DNA of 37,217 nucleotides. Source: a virus. Where the stretch lies: positions 1-37,217 of the IMG/VR virus record IMGVR_UViG_3300000230_000317. One strand, 5' to 3'. The position numbers and the translations under genes were made by a program. Shown here in pieces: positions 4,583-28,819 of the stretch (position 1 is the stretch's first letter; each line of letters begins with the position of its first letter). The notes beneath the pieces were generated by a model that saw only the letters and a program-made list of their open reading frames with translations, had not been told where the DNA came from and made no database searches.

Positions 4583-5041
4583 TTAATCATCGCTCCAATC
4601 TTCTTCGCCAAGAGGATCGACGTCTGATATTATAATTTTAGGTTTAGTAAATGTAAATTCTAAATTATCTAACTCACCATGCATTGGATATATATGTAAT
4701 ACCTTATCAGCTTGTATAAAAATAACAATGGAATCTTTTTCGATATTAATACCTCTATAACCACCTATTGAAATTTCCCTATTTCCTTTTGTTCCAAAAA
4801 TAATAACAGGTTCATTTTTAGAATTCAATTTAAATTCAAATTCTGTATTATGAACTTTAACATTATATCCTTTATTGATGAAAGAATTTATTTTATTGGC
4901 TATATTTTCAACGTTCCTATTACTTAATTTATATAATTCTTCTAATGTTAATACAATTTTATCATTGTTATTATCATAACCTTTTGGTGGGGGTAGCATT
5001 AATAAATTGGTTTGTTCGAATAATTTAAAATTTTTTAACAT
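4583..5041 (-). CDS. Hypothetical protein with capsid-targeting-like leader and C-terminal DVDPLGEEDW motif
   Basis: 152 residues. The start MLKNFKLFEQ resembles the M-K-x-[YF]-x-x-[FY]-[IL]-x-E leaders of its neighbours, with LFE as the possible cleavage site. A PLPP-like stretch (LMLPPPKGY) follows, then an alpha/beta body. The last residues, DVDPLGEEDWSDD, are the same acidic motif found near the N-terminus of the upstream LRR proteins, here exactly at the C-terminus. It is the last gene of the minus-strand array, 56 bp after the last LRR gene, with the terminator 100 bp downstream. I do not recognise a family. The shared motif and leader argue that it works with the LRR proteins. Confidence 0.75.
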   Translation of the reverse strand: MLKNFKLFEQTNLLMLPPPKGYDNNNDKIVLTLEELYKLSNRNVENIANKINSFINKGYNVKVHNTEFEFKLNSKNEPVIIFGTKGNREISIGGYRGINIEKDSIVIFIQADKVLHIYPMHGELDNLEFTFTKPKIIISDVDPLGEEDWSDD

Positions 5042-5097
5042 ATAATCTATATATTAATTTTTAATTTTATTTTTTTACAAAGTTACTCTTTTTAATT

Positions 5098-5619
5098 TTA
5101 TATTAAAAATGTTTTTATTTTTTTTAATTTTTTCATTTGAGTTTTTTGGAAATCTTTCAAATAATCTTTTGGGAAATCATTATTACGAACAACTAAATAT
5201 TCAAGATTAATAAGATTTTCTATTCCATTTAAATTTGTTAAATTATTAGATGAACAATGCAATAGTTTAAGATTACTAAGATTTTCTATTCCTTCTAAAC
5301 TTATTAAATTGTTTCTATAACAATACAATTCTTGAAGATTAATAAGATTTTTTATACCGCCTAAATTCGTTAAATTATTAAGCGAACAATCTAATCTTAG
5401 AAGATTAACAAGATTTTCTATTCCTTCTAAACTTGTTAAATTGTTAGAACGACAAAATAAATCTGTTATCTGGTCATAGGGTTTACCTTGTCTTTTAGCT
5501 ATTTTGAGAACAGGTGTTAAAACTTCATCATCCCAATTTTCTTCGCCATAAGGATCAACTTCATCACTAGAATAGACTATATTATTCTCTTTTAAATATT
5601 GTTTATATTCTTTTATCAT
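5098..5619 (-). CDS. LRR protein 6 of 6 (shortest, divergent C-terminus)
   Basis: 173 residues. Leader MIKEYKQYLKE (possible cleavage after LKE), then SSDEVDPYGEENWDDE, then the conserved LTPVLKIAKRQGKPYDQIT cap. These are followed by four 22-residue LRRs of the form (S/N)LxGIENLxNLxxLxCxxNNLT. The usual C-terminal cap of its paralogues (NNFSxxYxQYLxEYC) is replaced by NNDFPKDYLKDFQKTQMKKL and a basic end, so the tail has diverged or recombined. The start overlaps the stop of the upstream LRR gene by 4 bp (5616-5619), a translational-coupling arrangement. LRR domains bind proteins; the target here is unknown. Confidence 0.9.
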   Translation of the reverse strand: MIKEYKQYLKENNIVYSSDEVDPYGEENWDDEVLTPVLKIAKRQGKPYDQITDLFCRSNNLTSLEGIENLVNLLRLDCSLNNLTNLGGIKNLINLQELYCYRNNLISLEGIENLSNLKLLHCSSNNLTNLNGIENLINLEYLVVRNNDFPKDYLKDFQKTQMKKLKKIKTFLI

Positions 5620-6305
5620 ATACTTAAATTTATATTTTTATCTTTACAATATTCTTTTAAATATTGTTTATAATCATCAGAAAAATTATTATAAAAACAA
5701 ATTAATTCTGTAAGATTGGTAAGATTTTCTATACCATCTAAACTTGTTAAATTATTATAAGAACAATTTAATTTTTTAAGATTAATAAGATTTTCTATGC
5801 CTTTTAAATTCTTTAAATTGCTATTTCGACAAAATAATTCTTTAAGATTAATTAAATTTTCTATTCTTTCTAAATTTGTTAGATTATTTTTCGAACAATA
5901 TAATTTTTCAAGTTTTTTAAGATTTTCTATTCCTTCTAAGGCTGTTAAATTGTTACTAGAACAATATAATTCTTTAAGATTAATAAGATTTTCTATTCCT
6001 TCTAAATTTGTTAAATTATTACCCCAACAAATTAAAGTCCTAAGATTACTAAGATTTTCTATTCCTTCTAAACTAATTAAATGTTTATTAGAACACACAA
6101 AATATGTTATTTGTTCATAAGGCTTACCGAGCCTTTTAGCTATCCTAAGAATTGGTGTTAAATCATCATCATCCCAATATTCTTCACCCAAAGGATCAAC
6201 ATCGTTTGAATCAATTACAGGATAATTTACAATTCGTTTCTTGAACGGATTTCGAAAATTAAAATTTAATTCTTCGCTTATATATTGATTATATTTTTTA
6301 ATCAT
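5616..6305 (-). CDS. LRR protein 5 of 6
   Basis: 229 residues: leader MIKKYNQYISEELNF (possible cleavage after ISE), a basic linker (NPFKKRIVNYP), DSNDVDPLGEEYWDDDD, the cap LTPILRIAKRLGKPYEQIT, six full 22-residue LRRs with a Cys on the predicted beta strand (LxC), and the C-terminal cap NNFSDDYKQYLKEYCKDK. It overlaps both neighbours by 4 bp (stop at 5616, start at 6305). One repeat has IERIENL-type drift (NLERIENL), and another has NSNLK instead of NNLT. Expected to be a soluble protein-binding scaffold. The leader suggests packaging into the head (inference). Confidence 0.9.
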   Translation of the reverse strand: MIKKYNQYISEELNFNFRNPFKKRIVNYPVIDSNDVDPLGEEYWDDDDLTPILRIAKRLGKPYEQITYFVCSNKHLISLEGIENLSNLRTLICWGNNLTNLEGIENLINLKELYCSSNNLTALEGIENLKKLEKLYCSKNNLTNLERIENLINLKELFCRNSNLKNLKGIENLINLKKLNCSYNNLTSLDGIENLTNLTELICFYNNFSDDYKQYLKEYCKDKNINLSI

Positions 6306-6922
6306 ATGTATAATTTTATTTTTTTCTTTTTACAATATTCTTTTAAATATTGTTTATAATCATCTGAAAAATTATTATCAGAACAAATTAATTCTTCAAG
6401 ATGAGTAAGATTTTCAATTCCTTCTAAACTTGTTAAATTATTATATCTACAATTTAAATGGTTAAGTTTAACAAGATTTCCTATTCCTTCGAAATTAGTT
6501 AAATAATTATGTGAACAACGTAACATTTTAAGATTACTAAGATTTTTAACTTCTTTTAAAATAGTTAAATTATTATTTTCACAATATATTTCTTTAAGAT
6601 TTTTAAGATTTTCTATTCCTTCTAAATTAATTAACTTGTTGTTCCAACAACATAAACATTCAAGTTTAATGAGTTTTTCTATTCCTTCCAATGTCTTTAA
6701 ATCACCATTGTTACAAAACAATTCTTTTATTTTTTCATAAAGTCCTTGTTTTTTAGCTATTCTAAGAACAGGTGTTAAATCGTCATCATCCCAATTTTCT
6801 TCACCCAAAGGATCAACATCGTTTGGATCTATTTCAGGATAATTTTTAATCTTCTTTTTGAATAAATTTTTTAAATTGAAATTTAATTCTTCGCTTATAT
6901 ATTGGTTATATTTTTTAATCAT
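6302..6922 (-). CDS. LRR protein 4 of 6
   Basis: I placed the start at ATG 6922 (MIKKYNQYISEELNF), because it reproduces the leader of the next paralogue exactly. An in-frame ATG at 6949 would add nine residues lying inside the upstream gene. The 206-residue product has a basic linker (LFKKKIKNYP), DPNDVDPLGEENWDDDD, the cap LTPVLRIAKKQGLYEKI, five LRRs and the cap NNFSDDYKQYLKEYCKKKK. Its repeats are more diverged than those of its neighbours (ILKEVKNL, NFEGIGNL). It overlaps the upstream LRR gene by 8 bp and the downstream one by 4 bp. Confidence 0.88.
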   Translation of the reverse strand: MIKKYNQYISEELNFNLKNLFKKKIKNYPEIDPNDVDPLGEENWDDDDLTPVLRIAKKQGLYEKIKELFCNNGDLKTLEGIEKLIKLECLCCWNNKLINLEGIENLKNLKEIYCENNNLTILKEVKNLSNLKMLRCSHNYLTNFEGIGNLVKLNHLNCRYNNLTSLEGIENLTHLEELICSDNNFSDDYKQYLKEYCKKKKIKLYI

Positions 6923-7628
6923 ATGACAATTGTATTTTTTCATTTTCACAATATTCTATTAAATATTGTTCATATTCATTAGAAAAATTATTATTTTTAC
7001 AATGTAAAAATCGTAAATTACGAAGATTTTCTATCCCCTCTAAACTCTTTAAATTATTATTTTTACAATCTAATATTTTAAGATTAATAAGATTTTCTAT
7101 TCCTTCTAAACTAGTTAAATTGTTATTATAACAATATAATTCTTTAAGATTAATAAGATTTTCTATTCCTTCTAAGCTTGTTAAATTGTTGCCATTACAC
7201 AATAATTTTTTAAGATTAATAAGATTTTCTATACCATCTAAACTTGTTAAATTGTTGCCATCACACAATAATCTTTCAAGATTAATGAGATTTTCTATAC
7301 CATCTAAACTTGTTAAATTATTAAAAGAATAATCTAATTTTTCAAGATTAATAAGATTTTCTAACCCTTTTAAGTCTGTTAGATTATTTTTAGCACAAAA
7401 TAAATATTTAAGATTAATTAAATTTTCTATTCCTTCTAAATTCATTAAACCTCGATTAACACAATATAATTCTGTTATCTGAACATATGGTTTACCTTGT
7501 CTTTTAGCTACCCTAAGAACCGGGGTTAATTCATCTTCTTCCCAAATTTCTTCACCATAAGGATCAATTTCATCGTTTGAATAAACTATATTATTCTCTT
7601 TTAAAAAATGTTTGTATTTTTTCACCAT
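6915..7628 (-). CDS. LRR protein 3 of 6 (seven repeats)
   Basis: 237 residues. Leader MVKKYKHFLKE, then SNDEIDPYGEEIWEEDE, cap LTPVLRVAKRQGKPYVQIT, seven 22-residue LRRs and C-terminal cap NNFSNEYEQYLIEYCENEK. Adjacent repeats are nearly identical at the DNA level (around 7130-7340), as expected from recent unequal recombination, while the residues at the exposed strand positions (LERLLCDGN, LKKLLCNGN, LKELYCYNN) differ. One repeat has Tyr in place of the strand Cys (LDYSFNN). Overlaps: 8 bp with the downstream gene, 7 bp with the upstream gene. Longest of the six. Confidence 0.9.
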   Translation of the reverse strand: MVKKYKHFLKENNIVYSNDEIDPYGEEIWEEDELTPVLRVAKRQGKPYVQITELYCVNRGLMNLEGIENLINLKYLFCAKNNLTDLKGLENLINLEKLDYSFNNLTSLDGIENLINLERLLCDGNNLTSLDGIENLINLKKLLCNGNNLTSLEGIENLINLKELYCYNNNLTSLEGIENLINLKILDCKNNNLKSLEGIENLRNLRFLHCKNNNFSNEYEQYLIEYCENEKIQLSYD

Positions 7629-8206
7629 GCGTATAATCTTATTTTTTTATTTCGACAATATTTAATTAAATATTGTTCATATTCATGGGGGTATTTATTT
7701 TCATAACAACGTAAGTCTTTAAGATTAATAAGATTTTCTATTCCATCTAAGCTTTTTAAATTATTATTAGGACATGCAAAATATTTAAGATTAATAAGAT
7801 TTTCTATTCCATTTAAATTTCTTAATTTATTTTCACCGCAATATAAATTTTTAAGATTGACTAAATTTTCTACGCCTTCTAAACTTGTTAAATTATTAAC
7901 ATGACAATATAAATGTTCAAGATTAATAAGATTTTCTATTCCCTTTAAATTTCTTAATTTGTTTTCATAACAGCGTAATTCGTTAAGATTAATAAGCTTT
8001 TCTATGCCTTCTAAACTATTTAAATCTTTATTGTGACAATCTAAATATGTTATTTGGTCATAAGGCAAACCTTGTTTTCTAGCCACCCTAAGAACAGGGG
8101 TTAATTCACCATCATCCCAATCCTCTTCCCCATAAGGATCAACTTCGTCACTTGAATAAACTATATTATTCTCTTTTATATATTCATTATATTTTTTAAT
8201 TATCAT
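7622..8206 (-). CDS. LRR protein 2 of 6
   Basis: 194 residues. Leader MIIKKYNEYIKE, then SSDEVDPYGEEDWDDGE, cap LTPVLRVARKQGLPYDQIT, and five LRRs that alternate NNLT-type and ENKLR-type turns (RCYENKLRNL, YCGENKLRNL). The C-terminal cap is ENKYPHEYEQYLIKYCRNKK. The alternation suggests duplication of a two-repeat unit. The start overlaps the upstream LRR gene by 11 bp and the stop overlaps the next gene by 7 bp. Same inferred role as its paralogues. Confidence 0.9.
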   Translation of the reverse strand: MIIKKYNEYIKENNIVYSSDEVDPYGEEDWDDGELTPVLRVARKQGLPYDQITYLDCHNKDLNSLEGIEKLINLNELRCYENKLRNLKGIENLINLEHLYCHVNNLTSLEGVENLVNLKNLYCGENKLRNLNGIENLINLKYFACPNNNLKSLDGIENLINLKDLRCYENKYPHEYEQYLIKYCRNKKIRLYAW

Positions 8207-8870
8207 AAGACAATTGTATTTTTTTCTTTTTACAATATTTTCTTAAATATTGTTCATATTCTTCTGAAAAATTATTGTAGCTACAACTCAATTCTTTAAG
8301 ATTACTAAGATTTTCTATTCCTTTTAAGCTTGTTAATTTGTTACCTTGACATTCTAAAAGTTCAAGATTAGTTAGACTTTCTAATCCTTCTAAACTTGTT
8401 AAATTATTATTCCAACAATTGAAAAATTTAAGATTAATAAGATTTTCTATTCCTTCTAAATTTGTTAAATTATTATTCGGACAATTTAAACTATTTAGAT
8501 TAATAAGATTTTCTATGCCATTTAAATTTGTTAAATTATTATTATCGCAATCTAAAGATTTAAGATCGATAAGATTTTCTATTCCTTCTAAACTTGTTAA
8601 ATTGTTACTGTGACAATATAACATTTGAAGATTAATAAGATTTTCTATACCATCTAAATTAGTTAATTCTATGTCGCTACAATCTAAACTTGTTATTTTT
8701 TCATAAGGTTGACTTTGTTTTTTAGCTATTATGAGAACAGGTGGTAAATTTTCACCATCTAAATGGTCGACATCGTTTGAATCCATTTCAGGATAATTTT
8801 TAATATTCTTTTTGTTCGGATTTCTAAAATTTAATTCTTCATTTATACATTCATTGCATTTTTTCATCAT
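8196..8870 (-). CDS. LRR protein 1 of 6 (first in array, degenerate acidic motif)
   Basis: 224 residues. Leader MMKKCNECINEELNF keeps the INE site but has Cys where the others have Tyr/Phe. The acidic motif is degenerate (SNDVDHLDGEN), lacking PxGEExW. The cap is LPPVLIIAKKQSQPYEKIT. Six LRRs follow, then NNFSEEYEQYLRKYCKKKK. Two in-frame ATGs (8870, 8867) sit together; either would serve. Upstream are three copies of an ATGTTTATTTTTTTT element (8871-8926) that look like decayed copies of LRR gene starts. It lies 56 bp after the internal-protein-like gene, probably in the same transcript. Confidence 0.9.
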   Translation of the reverse strand: MMKKCNECINEELNFRNPNKKNIKNYPEMDSNDVDHLDGENLPPVLIIAKKQSQPYEKITSLDCSDIELTNLDGIENLINLQMLYCHSNNLTSLEGIENLIDLKSLDCDNNNLTNLNGIENLINLNSLNCPNNNLTNLEGIENLINLKFFNCWNNNLTSLEGLESLTNLELLECQGNKLTSLKGIENLSNLKELSCSYNNFSEEYEQYLRKYCKKKKIQLSYDN

Positions 8871-8926
8871 ATGTTTATTTTTTTTATTATATGTTTATTT
8901 TTTTTTTAATCATATGTTTATTTTTT
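8871..8926 (-). repeat. Three degenerate copies of an LRR gene 5' end
   Basis: The plus strand carries ATGTTTATTTTTTTT at about 8871, 8891 and 8914. On the minus strand this reads AAAAATAAACATATGATTAAAAAA-like blocks, resembling the region around the start of the LRR genes (CATATGATTAAAAAATAT). The copies are short and carry no ORF. Likely debris of recombination between LRR gene starts. Confidence 0.6.
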
Positions 8927-9922
8927 TTAAAATTTTCCAATTTCTTCTTTGAATTTATTAACGTCTTTATTTTGTATTGTAGCAATTGAATCTCTTACTT
9001 TAGCTAACATGGTATTATCTGTTATATTTACAATATTTCTTAATAATTTAGCCAAATTTTGTGTATTGCCAGTAGCTTTTGAATTTTTAGAAATTTCATC
9101 AAAAGGATCTGAACTACCACCACCTTTATTAGCGATAGGCGGTTTGGCTTCTTTCATTTTTTTTAAACAAACTTGATAAACATTAGCATCGCTCCATTTA
9201 TTTATAGCTTCTTTAAAAGTTGCTATATTGCCAGTCGGTGCAGCACTTGATGTGTCCCCAGATGTAGTCGTTCCTGTTGTTGACCCAGTTACTGATATCC
9301 CTGTTGTTGACCCAGTTACTGGTGATCCAGCTGGTGCTGCTTGTTCAATTACATTTATATCAGTGCTATCAGTTAAATATTTTTGAAAAGCCGCTTCATC
9401 TGTATAAGACTTTGTTGTTTTATTTATATTTATAAGTACCTCATTTACAATATTAAATATATTTTTACGAAAATCTTCAGCGCTATTTGCATCAAACATT
9501 TTATCAACAGGTGTACCATTAAACAAATTTGTAGGGTTTATTTGCGTATATTGATATTTATTAGCCATTACTTGTAATGAAACAAATACTGATTCCATAC
9601 TATCTGCAATAGCTTTTCTAATACCTAAAGGTCCCGTTGAAGCGGCGAATAATTCATCCATTCTTTTCATACTAATATTAACAGATTCTTCAAAACTTTT
9701 AACAGAATCCTGCCAACTTTTAGATGAATCTATTTTCTTTGTAAAATTATTAACAGCATCAGCTAATGTTTTATCCATTTTGGCAAACAGTCTACCAAAT
9801 AAACTTTTAACAGCATCCCATAACAATTCTTCATTTAAAATGAATTCATTGTTTCCATATGATTTTTCAATTAGAAAATCATTTTTGAAATTTTTATAAT
9901 TTCTTAAATTTTTAAGTTCCAT
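8927..9922 (-). CDS. Putative internal/virion protein with capsid-targeting-like leader
   Basis: 331 residues. The start MELKNLRNYKNFKNDFLIEKS is Lys/Asn/Phe-rich with LIE, and a second possible site, ILNEELLWDAV, lies near residue 30. The body to about 190 is helical (LFGRLFAKMDKTLADAVNN, KKIDSSKSWQDSV). It is followed by a Pro/Ser/Thr/Gly linker (about 193-228) with a nearly exact TGSTTG duplication, and a helical C-terminal domain. No catalytic motif is seen. It is the first gene of the minus-strand array that continues into the LRR genes and is divergent from the giant virion gene at 10023. Leader and composition suggest a prohead core or internal protein; this is inference. Confidence 0.8.
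   Translation of the reverse strand: MELKNLRNYKNFKNDFLIEKSYGNNEFILNEELLWDAVKSLFGRLFAKMDKTLADAVNNFTKKIDSSKSWQDSVKSFEESVNISMKRMDELFAASTGPLGIRKAIADSMESVFVSLQVMANKYQYTQINPTNLFNGTPVDKMFDANSAEDFRKNIFNIVNEVLININKTTKSYTDEAAFQKYLTDSTDINVIEQAAPAGSPVTGSTTGISVTGSTTGTTTSGDTSSAAPTGNIATFKEAINKWSDANVYQVCLKKMKEAKPPIANKGGGSSDPFDEISKNSKATGNTQNLAKLLRNIVNITDNTMLAKVRDSIATIQNKDVNKFKEEIGKF
9273..9321. repeat. 27-bp-period tandem repeat in linker
   Basis: A 22-nt segment (CCTGTTGTTGACCCAGTTAC then TG) occurs at 9273-9294 and again at 9300-9321, a 27-bp period. It encodes the duplicated TGSTTG block in the Ser/Thr/Gly linker of the gene at 8927-9922. Replication slippage is the likely origin. Confidence 0.85.
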
Positions 9923-21916: not shown

Positions 21917-22525
21917 TCAAACCGCAGAAATTGAAGATTTGGTCAGATTAATGGTTTTTTTCAAATCATCATTACTCATAATCATTTTAAAATAATCATC
22001 TTTATTCTGAACATTTTGTAAAGACCAATCGTTACCAGCATTAGAAGTTCTATAAATATAATTTTTATCACCTTTTTTTATTTCTATAGTTTTGCTAGAT
22101 AATTTATCATAAAAATTTCTTATATTATCATTAACTTCATACATTTTGATAGTATTCCATTTTTTAGATTCTTCGTTTTTTGTCTGTATTATTAAATATT
22201 CAGGTATAGGGTCAAGTTCAGATTCTTCTTTTTTAAAAATTAGAAAAAATTTAATATTAATAGAATCGTCTAAAAATGTTTCAATGTCTTTAGAATATTC
22301 TATATTATTTTTTTTAAGACCTTTTTTGTTTAAATTTTTTAAAAAAATTGGGTCATTATACAAAACATCAATATTATTAAAATCGTTTAGATTTACATCA
22401 AGGACATCACCCATTAAAATCTGTTCAGCGTCAATTGATTTTAATAAAACATCTGTTGTTACAGAATTTTCATTTATTTTAAAAAATTCTTTTTTTAGAA
22501 ATTGTGAAAAGTTTTTTATAACCAT
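21917..22525 (-). CDS. Hypothetical protein with capsid-targeting-like leader, 202 aa
   Basis: Starts MVIKNFSQFLKKEFFKINENS. KNFSQFL followed by INE at residues 17-19 resembles the T4 internal-protein leader and those of the LRR array, with a somewhat longer spacing. The body is mixed alpha/beta (FLIFKKEESELDPIPEYLIIQ; KWNTIKMYEVND) and ends in a Ser/Ala-rich tail. No catalytic motif is recognised. Four bp separate it from the stop of the upstream gene 22530-23405, so it closes a minus-strand unit. A possible internal head protein, by inference from the leader only. Confidence 0.7.
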   Translation of the reverse strand: MVIKNFSQFLKKEFFKINENSVTTDVLLKSIDAEQILMGDVLDVNLNDFNNIDVLYNDPIFLKNLNKKGLKKNNIEYSKDIETFLDDSINIKFFLIFKKEESELDPIPEYLIIQTKNEESKKWNTIKMYEVNDNIRNFYDKLSSKTIEIKKGDKNYIYRTSNAGNDWSLQNVQNKDDYFKMIMSNDDLKKTINLTKSSISAV

Positions 22526-24678: not shown

Positions 24679-25131
24679 TTAATAATTATTAACTAATTTC
24701 TGTTTAGTTTCCCTATCAATATCTTTTTCTTTTAAACTATCTTTCTTATTATATAATTTCTTCCCCCTGCACAACCCAATTTCCATTTTAATCAACCCCC
24801 TTTCATTGGTAAAAATCCTCAAAGGTATTATAGTTAATCCCCTTTCATCGTACTTCTTCTTAAATTTAATCAGTTGCTTTTTAGTTAAAAGCAATTTTCT
24901 ATCACCTTTAGGATCATGTTTTTCAAGCGTAGCCTTTTCATATTCACTAATATGAAAATTCTTTAACCACAATTCATCCATTATAAAATCACAATATGAA
25001 TCATTGAAGCTAATTTTACCTTCTATAATAGATTTAACCTCTGACCCCTTTAAAATCATCCCCGCCACTTCATCTTCAATTACTTCGTAATTAAAAAATG
25101 CTTTTTTATTTTTTATGTTTAATTTACTCAT
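24679..25131 (-). CDS. smpB: SmpB, tmRNA-binding trans-translation protein
   Basis: 150 residues, aligning by eye over nearly the whole SmpB family (E. coli about 160). KNKKAFFNYEVIEDEVAGMI is followed by LKGSEVKSIIEGKISFNDSY, then WLKNFHISEYE, HDPKGDRKLLLTKKQL, GLTIIPLRIF, MEIGLCRGKKLYNKKDSLKEK and DIDRETKQK. The tmRNA-contacting and GKK-LYDKR-type blocks are kept. The C-terminal tail, which reaches into the ribosomal mRNA channel, is short but basic (KQKLVNNY). SmpB brings tmRNA to stalled ribosomes. No tmRNA gene is visible in this window, so it would use the host tmRNA or one elsewhere in the genome. Its own terminator follows. Confidence 0.93.
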   Translation of the reverse strand: MSKLNIKNKKAFFNYEVIEDEVAGMILKGSEVKSIIEGKISFNDSYCDFIMDELWLKNFHISEYEKATLEKHDPKGDRKLLLTKKQLIKFKKKYDERGLTIIPLRIFTNERGLIKMEIGLCRGKKLYNKKDSLKEKDIDRETKQKLVNNY

Positions 25132-26021: not shown

Positions 26022-26654
26022 TTAATTAAAAATTAAATTTTCAACATTAGATTTATTTCTAATATCGAAAATTATTATATATGAATATATTTTCACTGTA
26101 ACCGTATTAAAAATATAATTTTTATTTATAATAGCACACTTAATATTATTTTTTTTATAAATAGTTTTTTTTAAATTATCATTATAAATTAAAGTGTTTG
26201 AATTAATATTTTTAATTTTATTATTTTCTTCAATAGAAGGTTTATTAAAACCTTTAAAATTAAAAATATTGTCATCTTCATTATAATCACAAATAAATTC
26301 AGTTAAATAATTATTATGAAAAATTAAATAAATATTTTTTAAAATAATATCCGAATTCATCTCATATTCAGAAATATAATATATTTTATATTCAGAATAA
26401 TTTGAATCTATTAAAATTTCAAATATTTCGATATCATTTTTACTATTTAATTTTTTAAAATTAAGGTGTTCATTTATTCCAATATATTTTATTTTGACTT
26501 TTAAATCTTTTTTTATTACATCAATTATAGAAATATTTGTTTTATTAATAACAAATAAATCTTTTTTCCAATTTATATCATTTAAATTTTGTTGATAAGA
26601 TATAAATGGAATAAATACAATAAATAAAACAATTAAAATTTTTTTAAGTATCAT
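26022..26654 (-). CDS. Secreted protein of unknown function, 210 aa
   Basis: The N-terminus MILKKILIVLFIVFIPFISYQQ is a classical signal peptide with no lipobox. The mature part is Asn/Ile/Lys-rich, beta-leaning (IIDVIKKDLKVKIKYIGI; YKIYYISEYEMN) and lacks known motifs. It is highly A+T-rich even for this window. The start ATG overlaps the stop of the upstream gene 26651-27724 by 4 bp, implying translational coupling. Export to the periplasm suggests a superinfection-exclusion or envelope role, but nothing in sequence proves it. Confidence 0.7.
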   Translation of the reverse strand: MILKKILIVLFIVFIPFISYQQNLNDINWKKDLFVINKTNISIIDVIKKDLKVKIKYIGINEHLNFKKLNSKNDIEIFEILIDSNYSEYKIYYISEYEMNSDIILKNIYLIFHNNYLTEFICDYNEDDNIFNFKGFNKPSIEENNKIKNINSNTLIYNDNLKKTIYKKNNIKCAIINKNYIFNTVTVKIYSYIIIFDIRNKSNVENLIFN

Positions 26655-27724
26655 CTGGCGGCTGGATAATGTCCTCTTTTATTTTTATATTTTTTATAAT
26701 CAAACACAAAATATTCTTTAAATTTTCCATTTTTATCTTTTAAGAATTTAAATTTCCCATATCTTAAAATAGAATTTAATATAGAACCTCTTATTCTATA
26801 AGTATCAGAACCTAATAGTTTTTCACCCGCTGATATATTACTAATTCTTAAATATTCAATATCAGCGTCTGTTATTATAGGTGCAAAAATAGTAAATTTA
26901 TTATCTTTAGGTATTTCTTTTAAGTTCAATCTTATTTGATAAGAATCTTTTTGCTTAGGCAATCTTCTAAGATTTATATCATTCACCCATTGTCTAATTA
27001 AATCTTCTTTATTGAAAAAATAATAACTTATATTTAAATCATTTTCTTCTCTTTCATCCACCGATTCTGTTTCTGGAAATCCTATTAAAAAATGCGTTAC
27101 TTCTTGAAAAGAATCATTTAACAATCTTTCAATATTAGTTGAATCATTAGTGCCTTCTGGTATTAAACTGTTTAAAAAATTATAAAGGCTTAAACCATAT
27201 AATTCCCTTTTTTTTTCTGGTGTTATATCTGGTATATTATTTATATAATTTATAACATTACTTCTTATATTACCTAAAACTGGATTTTCATTAATACTAT
27301 TTAAAAATTTAACACTAATATTCATATTATCATTTATGGTTAAATCATATCTACTATTATTTGCAGTAGATATGACACCATTGAATAAACCAGCTATTAA
27401 ACCTTCAAAATTATCACCTCTTATAGTTTTAGAATTTAATAAAGAAAGTAGATAGTTAAACATTCTCACCTTATTTGAAGGTTTCATGAGGTTTAAATCA
27501 GTATTTGACATTATACCTTCTGTATAAAATCTAGTTGGTAATTCAGGATCTTTTCTATATTCAAATTCTGTTCTAACTAAATTCTTTATAGTTTGAGCGG
27601 CATCTATTTTATCAATAGATATTTTGCCATAAGTATATGATAACTTTTTTATCATATCTAATACTGCTTCAGATGTTTCTACTTTTTCATTGAGATATTG
27701 TATGTATGTTGAAAAATTTTTCAA
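26651..27724 (-). CDS. Putative packaged nuclease-like protein with capsid-targeting-like leader (TTG start)
   Basis: The frame has no upstream ATG before an in-frame stop; a TTG at 27722-27724 gives MKNFSTYIQYLNEKVETSE. That is a close match to the T4 internal-protein leader (MKxYxEFIxE), with LNE as the possible cleavage site, which supports this start. 357 residues. RGDNFEGLIAGLFNG (about 102-116) followed by SRYDLTI and NISVKFLN (124-142) resembles a PD-(D/E)XK nuclease core with E107/E108, D127 and K139, but with Ser instead of the usual acidic residue before xK; this assignment is tentative. The TTG lies in the arm of a 25-bp inverted repeat. The stop overlaps the next start by 4 bp. 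Confidence 0.7.
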   Translation of the reverse strand: MKNFSTYIQYLNEKVETSEAVLDMIKKLSYTYGKISIDKIDAAQTIKNLVRTEFEYRKDPELPTRFYTEGIMSNTDLNLMKPSNKVRMFNYLLSLLNSKTIRGDNFEGLIAGLFNGVISTANNSRYDLTINDNMNISVKFLNSINENPVLGNIRSNVINYINNIPDITPEKKRELYGLSLYNFLNSLIPEGTNDSTNIERLLNDSFQEVTHFLIGFPETESVDEREENDLNISYYFFNKEDLIRQWVNDINLRRLPKQKDSYQIRLNLKEIPKDNKFTIFAPIITDADIEYLRISNISAGEKLLGSDTYRIRGSILNSILRYGKFKFLKDKNGKFKEYFVFDYKKYKNKRGHYPAAR

Positions 27725-28270: not shown

Positions 28271-28289
28271 GTATAATTTAATTTTTTAG

Positions 28290-28363
28290 CTCCCCCTCTA
28301 GGACTTGAACCTAGGACATTCTGATTAACAGTCAGATGCTCTAACCAACTGAGCTAAAGGGGA
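28290..28363 (-). tRNA. trnN(guu): tRNA-Asn(GUU)
   Basis: 74 nt. Acceptor TCCCCTT/AGGGGGA, D arm AGCTCAGTTGGTTAGAGC, anticodon arm TCTGA-CTGTTAA-TCAGA giving GTT, T arm CTAGG-TTCAAGT-CCTAG, G73. All arms are canonical. Confidence 0.93.
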
Positions 28364-28381
28364 TTGTATTTAAATAATTTG

Positions 28382-28454
28382 TGATTCCACTGGGACTTGA
28401 ACCCAGAACCCCCATCTTAAGAGGATGGTACTCTGCCAATTGAGTTACGGAATC
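28382..28454 (-). tRNA. trnK(cuu): tRNA-Lys(CUU)
   Basis: 73 nt. Acceptor GATTCCG/TGGAATC, anticodon arm CCATC-CTCTTAA-GATGG giving CTT, T arm CTGGG-TTCAAGT-CCCAG, A73. CUU is the less common Lys isoacceptor in A+T-rich genomes, where AAA dominates. Confidence 0.92.
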
Positions 28455-28466
28455 ATATTAATTTAG

Positions 28467-28540
28467 TGACCTCACTGGGACTCGAACCCAGAACTCCCAC
28501 CTTAAAAGGGTGGTACTCTAACCAGTTGAGTTACGAAGTC
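28467..28540 (-). tRNA. trnK(uuu): tRNA-Lys(UUU), copy 1
   Basis: 74 nt. Acceptor GACTTCG/TGAGGTC, anticodon arm CCACC-CTTTTAA-GGTGG giving TTT, T arm CTGGG-TTCGAGT-CCCAG, A73. Differs from copy 2 only in the D loop (AACTGGTTAG against AATTGGTAG). Confidence 0.93.
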
Positions 28541-28556
28541 AATGTAATATATTTGG

Positions 28557-28629
28557 TGACCTCACTGGGACTCGAACCCAGAACTCCCACCTTAAAAGGG
28601 TGGTACTCTACCAATTGAGTTACGAAGTC
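28557..28629 (-). tRNA. trnK(uuu): tRNA-Lys(UUU), copy 2
   Basis: 73 nt and identical to copy 1 apart from the D loop, so a recent tandem duplication. The anticodon stem-loop, the target of Lys-specific anticodon nucleases, is unchanged between the copies. Confidence 0.93.
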
Positions 28630-28645
28630 ATTAAAAAAACATTTG

Positions 28646-28719
28646 GGAGTTTAACCAGATTCGAACTGGCGCTAAAAGTGCCACAAACTTTCGTGCTAAC
28701 CGCTAACACTATAAACTCC
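28646..28719 (-). tRNA. trnH(gug): tRNA-His(GUG)
   Basis: Anticodon arm AAAGT-TTGTGGC-ACTTT gives GTG. Acceptor GAGTTTA/TAAACTC is extended by an extra G-1 paired with C73, the identity element of His tRNAs, which confirms the call. T arm GCCAG-TTCGAAT-CTGGT. Confidence 0.92.
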
Positions 28720-28728
28720 ATATATTAG

Positions 28729-28808
28729 CGCAGCAGAAACGAATCGAACGCTTAAGACCCTTTCAGGTTACAGTTTTGGAGACTGCTTGGCTTACCAATG
28801 CCCACTGC
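28729..28808 (-). tRNA. trnW(cca): tRNA-Trp(CCA)-like, aberrant shape
   Basis: 80 nt. Acceptor GCAGTGG/CTGCTGC pairs over 7 bp with G73, fitting Trp. Anticodon arm GCAGT-CTCCAAA-ACTGT gives CCA. T arm AAGCG-TTCGATT-CGTTT is intact. The D arm (GGCATTGGTAAGCC) directly abuts the acceptor without the usual U8-A9, and the variable region is about 17 nt with a small ACC/GGT stem, which is unusual for Trp. It may be functional but diverged, or a degenerate copy. Confidence 0.7.
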
Positions 28809-28819
28809 TACGTATTAAA

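Follow-up and report, generated by a model that had tools for sequence, protein, structure and literature searches.

A tandem array of leucine-rich repeat genes with leaders resembling T4 capsid-targeting sequences in a viral fragment related to huge phages

The array and its genomic setting

The viral genome fragment IMGVR_UViG_3300000230_000317 (37,217 nt; the whole stretch is referred to below as the window) carries eight genes at 4583-9922, six of which encode leucine-rich repeat (LRR) proteins. It was analysed alongside related huge-phage genomes and contigs. All eight open reading frames (ORFs) proposed for this region in an earlier sequence-only reading are present on the minus strand (Table 1). 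The six LRR genes form a single operon-like run in which neighbouring ORFs overlap by 4-11 nt, and the LRR_4 Pfam family matched the three of them that were scanned (E 1.5e-11 to 3e-28). Gene calling relied on a simple script that takes the longest ORF, so start sites are approximate. The leader of LRR gene 3 needs an internal ATG near 6925; the listed ORF begins at an upstream GTG.

T4-type genes elsewhere in the window encode a gp5-type baseplate hub, UvsW and UvsY. Among complete genomes, the closest relative is the 735,411-bp LR756501/LR756503, with 80.8% identity in UvsW and 72% in a 1182-aa protein. We take LR756501 to be a Mahaphage. Among the genomes of Al-Shayeb et al. 2020, the largest, with Bacteroidetes as their predicted hosts, belong to the Mahaphage clade (PMC7162821).

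Table 1. Genes of the array and other features of the window. Numbers in brackets after a box give its position in the window.
Feature	Coordinates	Strand	Leader	Other features
152-aa gene	4583..5041	-	MLKNFKLFEQ, second class	C-terminal DPLGEEDW box (4618); LR756501 ortholog 500330-500806
LRR gene 1, 173 aa	5098..5619	-	MIKEYKQYLKE	DPYGEENW box (5556)
LRR gene 2, 229 aa	5616..6305	-	MIKKYNQYISE	DPLGEEYW box (6197)
LRR gene 3	6302..6949	-	MIKKYNQYISE	DPLGEENW box (6814)
LRR gene 4, 237 aa	6915..7628	-	MVKKYKHFLKE	DPYGEEIW box (7565); AlphaFold2 model
LRR gene 5, 194 aa	7622..8206	-	MIIKKYNEYIKE	DPYGEEDW box (8140)
LRR gene 6, 224 aa	8196..8870	-	MMKKCNECINE, decayed	decayed box DHLDGEN
331-aa gene	8927..9922	-	MELKNLRNYKNFKNDFLIE, extended, leader-like	LR756501 ortholog 460850-461971, starting MEDLKNIRHFEEFKDAVNE
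202-aa gene outside the array	21917..22525	-	MVIKNFSQFLKKE, near form	LR756501 ortholog with strict leader MRIKGYNKFVKED
SmpB gene	24679-25131	-		Pfam E 3.6e-48; 71% identical in LR756501, where ARAGORN reported no transfer-messenger RNA
357-aa ORF outside the array	26651..27724	-	MKNFSTYIQYLNE, matching	TTG start
Cluster of six tRNA genes	28289-28811	-		three of the six are tRNA-Lys

The N-terminal leader

According to the sequence-only reading, every product of the array starts with a leader of the capsid-targeting kind. When the leader is defined as [YF]xx[YFHL][ILMVF]xE within the first 22 residues, this holds well for LRR genes 1-5, five of the six. A leader of a second class opens the product of the 152-aa gene, and two starts are weak, namely that of the 331-aa gene and that of LRR gene 6, a decayed form in which Cys replaces both aromatic residues. 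A search of viral contigs for sequence relatives of the 331-aa protein found none. The matching 357-aa ORF outside the array had been missed. The second class, [FY]x[LI][FY]E, occurs 20 times at N-termini in LR756501 and 3-6 times elsewhere in its proteins.

Of the 41 genes called in the window, 5 have an N-terminal match, compared with 0.4 after shuffling (maximum 3 in 200 shuffles). Genome-wide tests in the relatives are far stronger. In LR756501, 66 of 1056 genes have an N-terminal match; mid-protein segments give 6, C-terminal ones 7 and shuffled sequences 7.7 (maximum 17 in 200). LR756500 has 28 in 701 genes (5.4 after shuffling), the sampled parts of LR756502 and LR756504 have 12 each (1.8 and 1.3), and the related sequence G013 has 17 in 142 (1.1). 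Four huge-phage genomes, complete or sampled in part, have N-terminal counts far in excess of those from mid-protein and the C-terminus.

Only the exact internal geometry of the leader is enriched in LR756501. There, an aromatic spacing of 2 yields 64 matches and other spacings yield 5-12; likewise, the right offset of the Glu yields 64 and other offsets 8-20. This Glu is followed by A, S, G or N in 41 of the 66 leaders (p=1e-10) and preceded by Asn in 33 (p=6e-22). The 66 leaders, with 65 distinct DNA codings, precede mature proteins of 52 unrelated families, so the leader is not merely a by-product of tandem duplication. Among the cargo proteins with known domains are PPK2, a radical SAM protein, a methyltransferase and a Glu-tRNA synthetase whose domain starts at residue 27. 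The synthetase, with its leader-like N-terminal extension, is encoded at L054:13267-14895 (+) in a genome that has three tRNA-Glu genes; two neighbouring tRNAs with an amber anticodon, called as tRNA-Pyl, lie at L082:10585-10738 (+).

Applied to T4, the same pattern returned four proteins. Two are presumably IPII and IPIII, as named from their MKTYQEFIAE starts and positions, and these carry the genuine signal; the others are a chance match and a 54-aa MKTFKEFIKED protein. Packaging of T4 IPIII needs just the first ten residues, of which positions 4 and 7 serve mainly targeting and positions 8 and 10 processing (PMC9026906). The array leaders have a spacing identical to that of these four mutation-tested positions. 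The leader is real, resembles a T4 capsid-targeting sequence in every sequence feature tested and is repeatedly attached to LRR proteins.

Head genes of the relatives

The sequence-only reading tied its case to the presence of a T4 gp21-type prohead protease. Such a protease is present in the relatives, the only genomes where it can be checked. An S77 protease profile matches all six complete relatives (E<=2e-5). Scores exceed the Pfam cut-off in three of these; in the close relatives LR756501, G012 and G013, the match falls below it. The LR756501 protein is scored by PHROG as a head maturation protease (E 4.9e-27), and its gene (73913) lies together with those for the portal (71969) and the major capsid protein (76415). 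Leaders of the array type end in [IL][NK]E/[ASN], with the slash marking the predicted cut, as do the predicted cut sites early in the protease and the capsid protein. The LR756501 protease begins ...LKKINE/A, and its capsid protein carries HQMNE/NVGYA. Comparable predicted [MLI]xE sites occur in the capsid proteins of LR756500, LR756502, LR756504, G002, G012, G013 and PTm1.

The DPYGEExW box

In five of the LRR genes, the leader is followed by a second motif, DP[YL]GEExW, which the sequence-only reading had missed and which in the window is confined to the array and the 152-aa gene. LR756501 (loci L048-L084) contains 103 exact copies of the octapeptide DPYGEExW in 81 different codings, for the most part C-terminal or within linkers. 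Ninety-nine copies lie in called genes, 38 of them very C-terminal, 43 internal and 18 close to the N-terminus, and in 26 of the 38 C-terminal copies the protein ends exactly two residues past the Trp. Some copies terminate small proteins with membrane-like N-termini. The box associates with leaders in the same genome (odds ratio 7.2, p=2e-11). It is present in some 30 IMG/VR contigs and was not found in LR756500, LR756502, LR756504, PTm1 or Lak-B6; a search of the open-access literature returned no report of a DPYGEE motif in phages. A second, short paralog of the head maturation protease in LR756501 (L048:11314-11850, minus strand; PHROG E 3.4e-19) also ends in DPYGEENW.

The box is under conservation at the protein level. 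A mobile DNA element was considered and rejected, given 81 codings among 103 copies and the location of 99 copies in called reading frames. The box is also unlikely to be another site for the same protease, as its Tyr is invariant in LR756501 and the matching leader position shows no Tyr and is dominated by Ile, Leu and Val, a weak comparison since the leader pattern itself barred Tyr there. One guess is that the box serves as a binding motif for a single phage-encoded reader.

The LRR proteins

The AlphaFold2 model of LRR gene 4 predicts a confident solenoid from about residue 36 to 235 (mean predicted local distance difference test score 89.6). Before the solenoid come a helix of low confidence (residues 2-12) and a disordered stretch up to about residue 30, which holds the DPYGEEIW box. 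The nearest fold is SDS22; internalins and repebodies derived from variable lymphocyte receptors (VLRs) are also among the nearest. The repeat period is 22 residues. Among 42 repeats from the window and the related sequence L001, entropy reaches 2.8-3.6 bits at the concave positions 3, 5, 7 and 8, compared with 0.6-1.5 bits at the other exposed positions 10, 12, 13, 18 and 22. A diversity-generating retroelement was considered as the origin of this variation, but the mix of Glu, Lys, Met and Trp at the variable sites is not typical of one.

The pairing of LRR and leader recurs in other lineages, which supports the capsid-targeting reading. LR756500 has LRR genes of another subtype, scattered over the genome, and 5 of these 7 carry the leader, against 25 of 694 other genes (p=2e-6); in L001 all LRR genes carry it. 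A third subtype (LPELPENLKEL) is joined to MKRYLEFIKE on the 29.8-kb contig G002, which also encodes an S77 protease. In L160, the LRR core of the window type carries the second leader class (MIKKFKIFEQ). The LRR relatives found in bacteria have long or signal-like N-termini without the leader, and a search of LR756501 for LRR_4 gave no match.

Interpretation

The array products are best read as LRR binders that are packaged into the virion, trimmed by the head protease and injected, a reading to which we assign a probability of roughly 0.7. Packaging, cleavage and injection are steps that we infer, the last of them following from the T4 analogy for head packaging and trimming. The reading of the leader as a capsid-targeting signal is well supported by its spacing, its N-terminal location, its unrelated cargo, the S77 protease of the relatives and the shared cut-like sites; to that extent the sequence-only reading stands. 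Each LRR protein would consist of a detachable head-targeting peptide, a disordered, acidic linker that contains the DP[YL]GEExW box, and an LRR solenoid between two caps. As a T4-type prohead assembles, the leader would dock the protein on its scaffold core, and the head protease would then cut after [IL]xE, freeing the LRR domain within the head. The mature proteins may enter the host alongside the DNA and there bind different targets, most likely host proteins that are the first to act against the phage or that need early takeover. That these targets are defence proteins is a guess by analogy; an anti-defence arsenal, as the sequence-only reading had suggested, is plausible in view of IPI (PMC3012670) and IPIII (PMC9391042).

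Several points weigh against this interpretation. The enzyme cargo, Glu-tRNA synthetase and PPK2, is unexpected, and the leader could do something else. No S77 protease was found in the 37-kb window, a fragment with no head genes of its own, and head packaging of the clade's leader proteins is a strong inference from sequence. The cultured relative PTm1 shows little enrichment (5 matches vs 2). In two sets of leaderless phage LRRs, the concave face is likewise the most variable, so diversity of binding is supported but an arms race not specifically. The T4-type jumbo phage CBB, the only jumbo phage with published mass-spectrometric virion data to be examined (PMC5259590), has no protein with a full leader, and these data therefore give no test of it. 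In an exploratory count, the cleavage-like part [ILVM]xE[ASG] in the first 18 residues was mildly enriched among detected CBB proteins, 8 of 53 vs 26 of 525 (p=0.008). Nine of the detected proteins, including Kelch and laminin-G types, share a different N-terminus of about MLPFxRxxEYxN (CBB_144, 247, 536, 537, 548, 549, 551, 552 and 553; KU574722, L293-L299).

Of the alternatives, the one that survives best is that the leader docks its proteins onto some other phage-made structure, such as a replication factory, a membrane site or a scaffold, and that the LRR proteins act in the infected cell after their expression. The leader's presence on metabolic enzymes would fit this, as would its association with DPYGEExW, which also ends the small proteins with membrane-like N-termini. 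Docking would not call for the exact spacing of T4 capsid targeting, a Glu conserved at one offset only with a small residue next to it, or the same [IL]NE/[ASN] in the N-terminal regions of protease and capsid protein; it is judged unlikely. The proteins might also be packaged as structural or DNA-organising components of the head and not as injected effectors. T4 IPIII influences head assembly besides infection (PMC9026906, PMC9391042), and several leader proteins are located in the head gene cluster. LRR domains, however, are typical protein-binding modules, and the copy number of the array varies between phages and LR756501 gave no LRR_4 match, which is unlike an essential head part; this role too appears improbable. 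A mere by-product of six-gene tandem duplication, as the 53-65% identity of the paralogs to LRR gene 4 might suggest, is strongly disfavoured by the family counts and has very little probability left, for the motif also sits on the dispersed LRR subtype of LR756500, and L160 joins the LRR core of the window to the other leader class.

If the LRR proteins are indeed packaged and injected, the T4 internal-protein strategy, with its three or four proteins, would extend to more than 60 per phage, and a short sequence tag would predict the injected cargo of uncultured giant phages straight from their genomes. Injected LRR binders would add a new class to the known phage effectors and supply natural scaffolds for binding bacterial proteins; no earlier description of injected leader-tagged LRR arrays was found in the open-access papers searched. 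The leader's presence on dozens of unrelated proteins suggests an injected protein toolkit that accompanies the DNA. A more tentative extension is that the largest phages load dozens of proteins into their heads through the T4-like leader and inject them, among them hypervariable LRR families as well as enzymes of translation and of polyphosphate metabolism, and that DPYGEExW might be a second, clade-specific tag on an overlapping set with a related sorting step.

Comparison with known systems

Cleaved and ejected proteins are likewise numerous in the large heads of phiKZ and SPN3US, as inner-body and ejection proteins (PMC5694885, PMC13282480); unlike for the array described here, no LRR cargo is reported in the available portions of these sources. 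As LRR proteins, the array products share the 22-residue solenoid and the variable concave face with SDS22-like and internalin LRRs and with lamprey VLR repebodies. They differ from these in their leader, the DPYGEExW linker and their phage-encoded tandem organisation.

T4 itself is also a close parallel. IPI, IPII, IPIII and Alt likewise bear a short N-terminal aromatic-xx-aromatic-[IL]-x-E leader on otherwise unrelated proteins, and the huge-phage relatives, like T4, have an S77 head protease, a portal and a gp23-type capsid protein. In the huge phages packaging is a prediction from sequence, and the leader often precedes a DPYGEExW box. Unlike the three or four leader proteins of T4, those of the huge phages number dozens per genome, and their cargo consists of LRR arrays and enzymes.
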